Assembly (NCBI GenBank): GCA_025351325.1
Contig: JANXWE010000090.1
Coordinates: 1-34,325 of the forward strand
Length of the DNA: 34,325 nt
Direction: 5' to 3'
Origin: Fimbriiglobus sp.
GTDB taxonomy: Bacteria; Planctomycetota; Planctomycetia; Gemmatales; Gemmataceae
A model generated the notes under the pieces. It was not told the origin of the DNA and did no database searches. It saw only the letters and a list, made by a program, of their open reading frames with translations. The translations under genes were made by a program, and so were the position numbers. Positions 23,946-27,489 of this stretch are shown here, in pieces (position 1 is the first letter of the stretch; each line of letters opens with the position of its first letter).

Positions 23946-23965
23946 AGCCGACTCAGCTGTCGGCT
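23946..23965 (-). terminator. weak hairpin across the stop of the DUF262 gene
   Basis: AGCCGAC and GTCGGCT form a 7-bp stem with a 6-base loop that contains the stop codon. A modestly T-rich stretch follows on the minus strand (GTGTTCCGT). It could end or stabilise the transcript; the evidence is thin. Confidence 0.3.
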
Positions 23966-26070
23966 CCCGTCCCCATTTGACTCTCCAATGACTGCCGAAC
24001 CAAGCCCATCACGTACGGCAGTTCCTCAAGCGATCCGAAGCCGATTTGGGCATCGCCGTTGCCCTGGTGCCCGAGATCTGTCACATCTTTGCATAGCCCT
24101 TTCGGGTCGCGCGTCTCCGCGAATGCCAGATTGAAGGTCAACAGTAACCGCTTGGCCCGCGGTTCAACATCGACGAAGTTGGTCTCCGCCTTGAACGCGA
24201 TGTATTGCTTGAAGAATTCCTGCGTGACGCAAGGGTCGAGGGCGAGGACTTCTTTCCGCAGCGCATCGAACAGGATCTGTGGCATGCCGCTCAGCAATCG
24301 GGGATGATTTTGGATCGAGTAAGCCTTGGCACCAAGTTGCTTCGTCGTCGTTGACAGGTCGGTCGAACTGCTTGGAAGCGGAGCGGGCCAAGCGCGCACC
24401 GCGATTGCGACCAACCGGGTCGCACGCGATGCAATCTCCTGTTCGTTCCACTTTTCGACTTTGCCCAGCCCGGCGTTCAAGTTCAACGGACTGTTTGCGA
24501 AGCCGCCTTCCATATTTTGCTTCTCGGAAAACGGCTTGTCGCTGTAATCGGAGTTGTACTTGGTCAGCGTGAGGTTCCCCAATTTGTGCAGCCAGTCCCG
24601 CTGGATCCGCTGCCAGTCGGCCCCCAATTCCGCTTTCCAGCTCGCGGACAAGTTGGCGTTCTGCGGCAGGATGTGCTCCACCGTGTAATCGATCAATGAG
24701 ACCAGCTCTTTTCGACCGAAGTTTTCCAGTCGGCGCAGCCAATACGAGCGGCGGGGAAAGTTGTAGAGGTCGCGGAGTGGCAGCTCGCGCTGGAACTCGT
24801 CGTCCGACGGGAAGCGGCGGTACGATGGCAAACTCCGAAAGTGCGCACGGACGCTTTCGAGGTAATCGGCTTTGTCGAGCGCCTTGGTGAAATTGGCGAA
24901 GGTCATGTTCATCGAATTCGGCGTGATCGAGCAAGCCGATCTGCGGAACACGTACGATTCCGCCAGCCGGACGGCTTCGACGAATTCGGATTTCGTTAAC
25001 CGGGATTGCGCGTAGTCGTCGTAGAGTTCGAGGAGGAACGGGTACGCGACGTCGACCTTCAATTCGCGCAGGTCGTCGAACGCGGATTTGAGGTCGGCGT
25101 CGGGTTCTTTCCCGAGCGCCATCGAGCAGTAGTACTTCGCAAAATTGCGAATGTCTTTGACGACGCCTTCGACCCCGTTGGCCGTCTCGATAAACGGTTG
25201 GGAATAGGTTTTGAACTTTTCATAGACGTCGTCGAGTTTCGGGATTTCTCCGCCGTTTTTCAGGGTGAGGTAGTGCCGCATGAAGCCGTCGAAATTCACC
25301 CCGTAGGCCTCTTGCCCGAACTCCAACTCCATTTGCCGCCAGTACTGTTCGTACAGTCTGGTTTGAACGGCGGGTTCCAAACCCATCAATATAAAATTCC
25401 GGATCAAATCCGCTTGGCTGAGCTCACGTCCGGTCGAATTCATGCTCTCGAAAATGAGCTGCGGGTTATCGAGATCACGCTTCAACGCGACATCGACGAC
25501 AACGAGTTTCGCCAGCCCTTTGCAGAGTGGTACGAGGTCGTCTTGACAATCCGCGATCAACTTTCGGAACAATTCGTAGTTCTTCGCGATCCGCAACGAT
25601 GCTTCCGCTGGTGCATCGATCCGCCCGACGACTGCGATCAGAGACGCTTTATCGGTTTGGGACAGGATGAGTTTATAATGCCTATCCCCCGTTTCCTCCG
25701 GGTTGAGCAAATAGTGGTTCCTCAACTTGCGCGGCGAAAAGCCGTCGACCGGTTCCTGATCCGTTTCTTGACGCGTCTCGAGGGCATTCGCCAGCGCCGC
25801 CAGCAACAGCGTCAGGGTTGTGAGCCGCTGCTGCCCATCGATGACGAGCAGCGGAGGTTGGAGCGTGACAGTGTAATCATTGGCTTCGATATAAACGATC
25901 GAGCCGACGAAATGCACCGAGATCGCTTCGTTGCGCCCCGTGCGGATGACGTCGTCCCAGAGTTTTTTGCTTTCCTTGGTTTTCCAAGAATACATCCGCT
26001 GGTAGATCGGGATCACAAACTGCGACGACTTCTTGAGAAATTCGAGCAGTTTGGCTTCGGTTGCTTTCAC
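23953..26070 (-). CDS. DUF262-DUF1524-DUF5655 protein (GmrSD/type IV restriction-like nuclease)
   Basis: This 705-residue protein has three recognisable parts. The N-terminal DUF262 (ParB/GmrS-like) domain shows FVIPIYQRMYSW at 18-29 and DGQQRLTTL at 78-86, the nucleotide-binding and cleaving motif. The DUF1524 HNH-like nuclease has VEHILPQN (Glu465, His466), LGNLTLT at 497-503 and YNSDYSDKPFSEK. From about residue 605 a DUF5655-type tail begins (YIAFKAETNFVD, then DLGHQGNGDAQIGF). Related GmrSD and BrxU proteins cut modified phage DNA, so a single-gene defence role is likely but not shown. The start is GTG 26070 with GAGGA before it. No methylase is nearby, fitting a type IV system. It adjoins the toxin-antitoxin island. 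Confidence 0.85.
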   Translation of the reverse strand: MKATEAKLLEFLKKSSQFVIPIYQRMYSWKTKESKKLWDDVIRTGRNEAISVHFVGSIVYIEANDYTVTLQPPLLVIDGQQRLTTLTLLLAALANALETRQETDQEPVDGFSPRKLRNHYLLNPEETGDRHYKLILSQTDKASLIAVVGRIDAPAEASLRIAKNYELFRKLIADCQDDLVPLCKGLAKLVVVDVALKRDLDNPQLIFESMNSTGRELSQADLIRNFILMGLEPAVQTRLYEQYWRQMELEFGQEAYGVNFDGFMRHYLTLKNGGEIPKLDDVYEKFKTYSQPFIETANGVEGVVKDIRNFAKYYCSMALGKEPDADLKSAFDDLRELKVDVAYPFLLELYDDYAQSRLTKSEFVEAVRLAESYVFRRSACSITPNSMNMTFANFTKALDKADYLESVRAHFRSLPSYRRFPSDDEFQRELPLRDLYNFPRRSYWLRRLENFGRKELVSLIDYTVEHILPQNANLSASWKAELGADWQRIQRDWLHKLGNLTLTKYNSDYSDKPFSEKQNMEGGFANSPLNLNAGLGKVEKWNEQEIASRATRLVAIAVRAWPAPLPSSSTDLSTTTKQLGAKAYSIQNHPRLLSGMPQILFDALRKEVLALDPCVTQEFFKQYIAFKAETNFVDVEPRAKRLLLTFNLAFAETRDPKGLCKDVTDLGHQGNGDAQIGFGSLEELPYVMGLVRQSLESQMGTGADS

Positions 26071-26110
26071 GTTTCCTCACCAACGAGTTGTATCAATCAA
26101 CTGCCCAATT

Positions 26111-26170
26111 CATTCTACCTCACACCTTCGTGCGGAAGTAGTCGAGCCTTAGCTTCATCACTCTTGGCGG
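26111..26170. repeat. direct repeat, left copy (duplicated uxs 3' end)
   Basis: The first 37 bases (26111-26147) are identical to 27429-27465, and similarity continues to 26170 with a few changes and one gap. Read on the minus strand it encodes [11 protein letters not shown] and a TGA, i.e. the last codons of the decarboxylase gene ([11 protein letters not shown]). It lies between the DUF262 gene and the stop of toxin 1, so the toxin-antitoxin genes are bracketed by two copies of one gene end. Confidence 0.85.
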
Positions 26171-26178
26171 TGTTATTC

Positions 26179-26502
26179 TTAGAGGTCATCTTCAGCGAGT
26201 CGGTCTTGGGCGGCTTGGCGAATCCGGTGCACCACAACGAGGTTACCGCGGATTGTGAAAAGAACACGGTGGGTCGTGCCTCGTTTCTTGCCGATGATCA
26301 GCTCTCGAAGATCACGCTGGAGATCGTCGGCCTCTTCGGCGCGAGCGTAGGGGTGCGGATCCGTTTCGAGTTGAATTATGAAACGGTCGACTTGGCCACG
26401 CCATCGATTTTCGGCGCGAGCTCCAACTTCGCGGCGTAAATACCTCGCTTCTTTTTCGATGTCCCAGCGTGCATTCGCTTCAAATTCGACTCGGAAGCTC
26501 AT
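26179..26502 (-). CDS. ParE/RelE-family toxin (module 1)
   Basis: The 107-residue protein reads MSFRVEFEANARWDIEKEAR, then AENRWRGQVDRFIIQLETDP and LRELIIGKKRGTTHRVLFTI, ending NLVVVHRIRQAAQDRL. This is the fold order of the ParE/RelE (plasmid stabilisation) toxins: two N-terminal helices, then strands with LRE...HRVLFTI and a C-terminal Arg-rich strand. ParE members poison DNA gyrase and RelE members cut mRNA on the ribosome; the sequence alone does not tell which. ATG 26502 overlaps the antitoxin stop (ATGA), so the pair is translationally coupled with the antitoxin first. Its stop is 8 bases from the left direct repeat. Confidence 0.85.
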   Translation of the reverse strand: MSFRVEFEANARWDIEKEARYLRREVGARAENRWRGQVDRFIIQLETDPHPYARAEEADDLQRDLRELIIGKKRGTTHRVLFTIRGNLVVVHRIRQAAQDRLAEDDL

Positions 26503-26759
26503 TGGCCCGTCTCATTGCCGGCCTCTCGAGCCGCGATCTCACGGCCCCACTGCTCCAAAAATTCTCGGGCATCGACAAGGCCTTTTCCCGCATCGGCATT
26601 GGCGATCGATTCCCGCAGACCCTGCAGGAATTCCTCGCGAGTCTCCCCGTCCGCCTCCCGCGGCCGCACCACGTCGACGACCACCTCCGTGCCGTCCGGC
26701 AGGGTCGACGCCTCCGTGAACTCGACCCGCCCGTTCATCACCACCCCGGAAAGCAACAT
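26499..26759 (-). CDS. antitoxin of module 1
   Basis: With ATG 26759 the protein has 86 residues and begins MLLSGVVMNGRVEFTEASTL followed by PDGTEVVVDVV. This N-terminus is nearly the same as that of the second antitoxin (SGVVMNGRVEFTE) and recalls the AF2212/DUF104-like antitoxins with an NGxxxx...LPDGT motif. The C-terminal half (EEFLQGLRESIANADAGKGL, FLEQWGREIA) is helical and probably wraps the toxin. The longer frame to 26831 is not used because the second antitoxin starts at the same point. It overlaps the toxin gene by 4 bases. Confidence 0.8.
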   Translation of the reverse strand: MLLSGVVMNGRVEFTEASTLPDGTEVVVDVVRPREADGETREEFLQGLRESIANADAGKGLVDAREFLEQWGREIAAREAGNETGQ

Positions 26760-26827
26760 GCGAATCTCCCGCTTCAGGTGCCGTAATTTTATTTCATCGC
26801 CCAGCCAACTCTCCAAAAGCGATCGCG

Positions 26828-27147
26828 TCAAAAGTCGTCTGCGATCAAGCGATCACGTGCTGCGTGTAAAACGCGGACAATTTCGACTATTTCACCTTCG
26901 ATGGTGAAGAGGATCCATAAACGTGCGGCCGCTTCCGGTGGAGCATTTCCCGGAGATCGAATCCGAGATCCGTGGCCTCATCCGCCTCCGGCCAGCGCTC
27001 GGCGTTGTGAGACAAATTCAAGATCGCGTACTGTATCGAAGCATTCCATTTCGTCGCGGATGCATCCGACAGATTCCGCCTGAGCCAATTGACCGCTCCG
27101 CGGATATCGTTGATCGCGGCGGCGGATGTCACGACGGAACGGGCCAC
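26828..27147 (-). pseudogene. ParE/RelE-family toxin (module 2), frameshifted
   Basis: From GTG 27147 the frame reads MARSVVTSAAAINDIRGAVN to LREMLHRKRPHVY and then leaves the family, ending SSSPSKVK at a TAG (26887-26889). In the next frame from 26915 the expected end continues: ILFTIEGEIVEIVRVLHAAR, then DRLIADDF and TGA at 26828-26830. Adding one base between 26916 and 26917 restores a 106-residue toxin, nearly the 107 of toxin 1. No slippery run is present, so a one-base deletion (or a sequencing error) is the likely cause rather than programmed shifting. The truncated product would lack the last strands. The gene starts 2 bases after its antitoxin. Confidence 0.8.
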
Positions 27148-27149
27148 GG

Positions 27150-27401
27150 CTAGTCCTCGATCACCGGGTCAAACCCGAATTCGGCGTTCAAGCGGGCGAA
27201 GGCCGTTTCGGCATCGAGGGCGTTGCCGGCGCGCAGATCCGCGCGGGCTTCGCGTAATTCGCGGAGCGTCTGTCCGCGGTCGTACAACTCGGCCAGCGGC
27301 TCGATTTGGACGAGATCCGCCGAAATCGGCGTACCGTCCGGTAGATTCACCCGTTCCGTGAACTCGACCCGACCATTCATTACGACTCCAGAAATCGTCA
27401 T
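27150..27401 (-). CDS. antitoxin of module 2
   Basis: The 83-residue protein starts MTISGVVMNGRVEFTERVNL with ATG 27401, followed by PDGTPISADLVQIEPLAEL and a helical C-terminus (LRELREARADLRAG, AFARLNAEFGFD). The first 15 residues nearly repeat those of the first antitoxin, while the toxin-binding halves differ, as expected of related modules with separate specificity. It is followed after 2 bases by the frameshifted toxin. It lies 27 bases from the right direct repeat. It may still be made and could act as a stray antitoxin or repressor. Confidence 0.8.
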   Translation of the reverse strand: MTISGVVMNGRVEFTERVNLPDGTPISADLVQIEPLAELYDRGQTLRELREARADLRAGNALDAETAFARLNAEFGFDPVIED

Positions 27402-27428: not shown

Positions 27429-27489
27429 CATTCTACCTCACACCTTCGTGCGGAAGTAGTCGAGCGTCAGCTTCAACCCCTCTTGACGG
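27429..27489. repeat. direct repeat, right copy (native uxs 3' end)
   Basis: This copy contains the true last codons and the stop of the decarboxylase gene plus 9 bases beyond. It is identical over 37 bases to 26111-26147. The 1258 bases between the two copies hold exactly the two toxin-antitoxin modules. Confidence 0.85.

Follow-up and report, generated by a model that had tools for sequence, protein, structure and literature searches.

What does a 705-residue open reading frame beside a toxin-antitoxin array in a planctomycete genome encode, and is it part of a defence locus? We addressed this question in the window, meaning the whole analysed stretch of 34,325 nucleotides from Fimbriiglobus sp. 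(GCA_025351325.1, contig JANXWE010000090.1, positions 1 to 34,325), for which a preliminary description had proposed a single-gene type IV defence protein at 23953-26170. The gene does lie there, as a single copy in the genome with a GTG start (23953..26070, minus strand); the proposed range overshoots the start by 100 bases, into an intergenic stretch that contains a repeat. A ribosome-binding-like GAGGA sequence lies ahead of the start codon (26074..26078, minus strand), and the start is supported by the MKATEAKLL N-terminus, which is conserved in relatives. GC content is 0.559, against 0.61–0.64 in the eight large window genes compared, and codon usage is not unusual.

The protein is organized into three domains, each matched in Pfam above the curated cut-off: DUF262/GmrSD_N, a predicted NTPase/sensor (residues 9–227; 25390..26046, minus strand; PF03235, E 1.5e-33), the DUF1524/GmrSD_C His-Me nuclease domain (residues 420–555; 24406..24813, minus strand; PF07510, E 1.2e-23), and a DUF5655 tail with a predicted YjbR/YdhG-like alpha/beta fold (residues 600–696; 23983..24273, minus strand; PF18899, E 1.3e-10). 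Their joining in one 705-residue chain, already noted in the preliminary description, is confirmed with the motifs intact. Both the DGQQR motif (residues 78–82; 25825..25839, minus strand) and His466, singled out in that description, are found as claimed and are invariant in 49 aligned proteins. Across the same 49, DUF262 further shows, besides D78–R82, invariant Q24 and R25 of its QR motif and, in its FxxxN motif, invariant N211 with F207 nearly so, and the H...N His-Me signature of DUF1524 is retained through invariant E465, H466 and P469 of the EHILP motif (residues 465–469; 24664..24678, minus strand) and the downstream N499 (24574-24576, minus strand). Pfam detects both GmrSD domains in 49/49 of these proteins and DUF5655 in 48/49, so the three-domain fusion is a family trait.

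Profile and fold comparisons place the protein in the same family. Its best PADLOC match is the "Orf5" model (E 3.4e-182, residues 10–561), a label for which no source paper was found, followed by HEC-06 (E 9.6e-63, residues 10–562); HEC-06 profiles together match residues 2–563. A model of the whole protein (mean pLDDT 75.1; DUF262 parts below 50, low confidence) was compared with known structures and gave DndI (VIA Z 23.5; 466 aligned, rmsd 10.0), the SspE C-terminal domain (Z 22.3; 341 aligned, rmsd 3.6) and BrxU (Z 14.9; 306 aligned, rmsd 5.8), all far above the remaining rows; Foldseek returned DndI with E 4.3e-14. The large whole-chain rmsd of the model probably reflects domain movement. 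The overall fold of a fused GmrSD protein was thus recovered (Z 14.9–23.5, with the DUF262 part of the model low in confidence), and the structural alignments put identity to characterised members at no more than 17%, a low value. The kinship to GmrSD and BrxU suggested at the outset is borne out by the Pfam matches, the PADLOC matches and the fold comparison alike.

A genome scan yielded 415 pattern matches, reduced to 402 relatives. The best 80 of the 402 share 59–65% identity over essentially the whole length and span many bacterial phyla together with Methanosarcina, Methanococcoides and Methanospirillum. Phyla are mixed in a gene tree of 49 sequences (22 changes, where the minimum is 11 and shuffling gives a mean of 26), which suggests transfer and does not prove it, because bins can hold foreign contigs. 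Among 58 relatives of the source genome searched, two carry a 64% identical copy and four a distant one; two family-level relatives have the gene in different neighbourhoods. The gene is accessory. Conserved synteny as a housekeeping gene, named in the preliminary description as evidence against defence, is not what we found, the three same-genus genomes giving no match; a housekeeping ParB-like role was rejected on account of the patchy presence. A full-length, 56% identical copy was also observed in an Anaerosphaera phage record (L184:353-2482), near a DNA invertase.

In the source genome (96% complete), HsdS (Methylase_S) had no match and no strong HsdM was found, the N6-methylase matches being weak (best 57 bits). 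DndC, the gene searched as the marker of phosphorothioate modification, likewise had no match, in a search that was positive in 5 of 14 control genomes. These three results together make the window copy an orphan. Within the window, no hsd gene neighbours it in the manner of an RloF-like, type I-embedded gene, and none of the 15 window proteins scanned gave a PADLOC BREX match. The other scanned genes encode a tricorn-like protease, an epimerase, dehydroquinate synthase, lactate racemase, an amino-acid kinase, a response regulator, a WD40 protein and others, with no further convincing PADLOC defence match among them; the match of the sigma-54 response regulator to RtcR models was attributed to an AAA domain common to both.

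Two ParE/antitoxin-like pairs occupy open frames at 26179-27401. No Pfam family was found for these pairs; a sister-genome toxin from the equivalent array matches ParE (Pfam). Toxin 1 (26887-27147, minus strand) carries a frameshift close to its end, and its ParE-like reading goes on in another frame. In the sister genome G002, four tandem antitoxin/toxin-like pairs follow the same epimerase (L096:1938-3771) with no GmrSD gene, and the tricorn gene lies on a different contig. A 47-base repeat of the epimerase gene 3' end (27429-27475) recurs with 45/47 identity directly upstream of the GmrSD-family gene (26111..26157, minus strand). Its copies flank the toxin-antitoxin array, one at the epimerase 3' end and one beside the GmrSD start, which hints at rearrangement at this point. 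The "small defence island" proposed for 23.9-27.4 kb is not supported: the other scanned window genes are mostly housekeeping, the array occurs without the GmrSD gene in G002, the two family-level relatives have the gene in different neighbourhoods, and toxin 1 is frameshifted. The defence-island reading is therefore weak, and a true defence island was rejected on the mostly housekeeping character of the remaining window genes.

The neighbourhoods of relatives present a different picture. Their genes form three large clusters, identified by Pfam as HsdS, HsdM and HsdR. For 52 of the 82 close homologues, which include one genome twice, type I restriction-modification (R-M) genes lie at most five genes away. 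Among the 36 homologues flanked by three or more genes on both sides, type I genes are nearby in 29, at least two subunit types in 26, and none in seven; chance expectation, estimated from how densely N6-methylase matches lie in the source genome (7 in 5.1 Mb) in place of a measured background, is about 0.02 per 16 kb. Many type I-embedded relatives overlap the neighbouring gene by a few bases, and the Ruegeria copy stands after hsdM-hsdS and before a DEAD/DEAH helicase gene, with integrases on the flanks. Some relatives that have no type I neighbours adjoin a C5-cytosine methylase (L043:10228-12291, L045:6395-7576).

The frequency of hsd genes near well-flanked relatives, the overlaps, and the joint retention of both GmrSD domains and the DUF5655 tail in close relatives (Pfam) would also suit a component of a type I R-M complex, the tail docking to that complex and the orphan copy being idle or working with another partner. 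We consider this unlikely, given that copies exist away from type I genes (7/36, plus the window copy), that DUF5655 occurs in other protein architectures too, and that BrxU and HEC-06-type proteins act alone (PMC11411939).

The integrity of individual copies was then compared. The window copy sits on a long branch of the gene tree and deviates at 23 of 301 near-invariant positions (0–12 in other copies), with none of the 23 inside the catalytic motifs; these departures make the activity of the window copy the least secure part of the functional reading, and from its sequence it could be adapted or losing function. The E. coli homologue lies between yjiR and symE-hsdSMR (L141:15001-17094, L139:12001-14091), a region known as the immigration control region, and is present in 1390 of 5426 complete genomes. 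Among 18 well-covered sampled E. coli copies, 17 have two gene calls instead of one and the other is interrupted by IS1, and one further copy has a stop at codon 33; the sampled copies therefore look largely broken. A decaying relic, its open frame kept by chance, would account for the long branch and the departures and would parallel the split or stop-containing E. coli copies, but with 705 codons open and the start, ribosome-binding site and all catalytic motifs retained we regard it as very unlikely. A phosphorothioate-sensing effector like DndI or SspE, sparing self through phosphorothioate marks on host DNA, would agree with these two ranking first among PDB matches by structure and by sequence, and with Tyr23 of PIYQR lying at the position of the phosphorothioate-sensing Tyr25/Tyr30 (PMC11662687), but is highly improbable and was rejected, as the genome has no DndC match by the control-tested search and Tyr23 is not diagnostic, since PxYQR is (nearly) invariant across a family found for the most part beside type I R-M genes.

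Because the tail had no clear fold in the model of the entire protein, it was modelled alone, aligned with diverse DUF5655 domains (pLDDT 87.8). The best Foldseek row was E. coli YjbR (probability 0.99 but E 0.03), with YdhG at probability 0.84. VIA gave Z 8.5–8.9 for YdhG and YdhG-like structures (8.9: 109 aligned, rmsd 3.5), 8.4 for YjbR (98 aligned, rmsd 4.0), and 7.0 and 6.6 for the DNA-binding domain of T4 MotA (99 aligned, rmsd 3.1; 100 aligned, rmsd 3.4). The tail fold is a lead, because such middling Z values may reflect no more than a widespread arrangement; rows for frataxin, secretion chaperones and aminotransferases in the tail search were likewise put down to alpha/beta layouts shared by many proteins. 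At the sequence level, the tail matched nothing significantly in the PDB. By hhalign it is linked strongly or fairly to PDC-S18 (99.6%) and to DUF4287-type DUF5655, weakly to DUF1801, and not to YjbR, MotA being outside this comparison. With a pI of 5.1 and a net charge of -4, the tail is acidic, and the basic residues conserved in it are few, among them K621, K627, R641, R692 and R605.

DUF5655 also occurs in other architectures, namely PDC-S18 candidates and DUF4287 proteins; no paper on DUF5655 or on PDC-S18 was found in PMC. In planctomycetes, proteins that combine a DUF5655 tail with a weak match to NucS_C correspond to PDC-S18 (L129:1501-2496, L120:838-1836, L124:1504-2457, L130:1501-2409). 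The MotA domain is described as a double wing that straddles the major groove and leaves space for glucosylated hydroxymethylcytosine; the same paper refers to work whose title states that modified DNA is recognised (PMC6755090). YjbR homologues adopt the double-wing fold and are predicted DNA binders (PMC7641849), and McrA, a type IV enzyme, has a reader domain with distant similarity to MotA (PMC7145662). On the modelled fold, we tentatively propose, as a doubtful but possible reading, that the tail is a double-wing-like modified-DNA reader of a widespread, type I-associated GmrSD branch; the same module would then target the NucS-like PDC-S18 candidates. The middling Z values, the acidity and scarce conserved basic residues of the tail, and a sequence link that is weak to DUF1801 and absent to YjbR speak against this reading.

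From the directly observed domains, motifs, fold similarity, distribution and context we infer substrate, cleavage and defence, and conclude that the gene probably encodes a GmrSD-family restriction enzyme that consists of one chain and is type IV-like, acting in dependence on DNA modification. What survives of the single-gene type IV defence protein first proposed is a GmrSD/BrxU-type, accessory and horizontally distributed gene with defence-associated relatives; its island setting does not. By homology, the DUF262 domain would bind and hydrolyse NTP and sense DNA, the helical linker would pass on the change, and the DUF1524 His-Me domain would nick or cut foreign DNA, probably DNA with modified bases. 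The DUF5655 tail is probably an extra module that binds DNA or a partner. Behind this functional reading stand the reported defence by TgvAB and BrxU (PMC11411939, PMC8565348), the independent function of HEC-06 (PMC11411939) and further work on DndI (PMC11662687). In relatives, where the enzyme is usually part of a type I R-M operon, it could be the counterpart to a system that restricts unmodified DNA, a role suggested for BrxU and TgvAB; the orphan enzyme in the source genome would have to act alone.

The gene is thus a genuine member, of ordinary to moderate interest, of an established family, and its three-domain architecture is absent from the family survey of 2015 (PMC4619093). Two domains account for most of what is known of GmrSD enzymes, and little is understood of how they select their DNA. 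A conserved tail, shared by a type I-associated branch that crosses phyla and predicted to resemble a fold that reads modified DNA in a T4 protein, offers a concrete hypothesis. Should the tail prove unrelated to DNA, what is left is an unremarkable orphan from a known family.

Set against known systems, the window protein shares with the type IV enzymes GmrSD and Eco94GmrSD a single chain of DUF262, helical linker and DUF1524 with DGQQR and His-Me motifs, and differs in its additional DUF5655 tail; the extra GmrSD-family domains listed by Machnicka 2015 are DUF4268, DUF4357 and DNA_binding_1, DUF5655 not being among them (PMC4619093). DndI and SspE are its closest solved folds (VIA Z 23.5 and 22.3), but rely on phosphorothioate marks, whereas the window genome has no DndC match. 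RloF and TgvAB are encoded by GmrSD-family genes inside type I R-M operons, like most relatives of the window gene; TgvAB requires two proteins, and no type I genes adjoin the window copy. The T4 MotA C-terminal domain, YjbR and YdhG resemble, at middling Z (7.0, 8.4 and 8.5), the fold predicted for the tail, although the tail is acidic (pI 5.1) and has no detected sequence link to YjbR. The PADLOC candidate PDC-S18 carries a C-terminal DUF5655 homologous in sequence to the window tail, while its remainder weakly matches NucS_C and not GmrSD. BrxU and the PADLOC systems HEC-05 and HEC-06 sit in BREX or Hma loci, and identity to BrxU is low, yet they are single-chain GmrSD-type proteins, as is the window protein.
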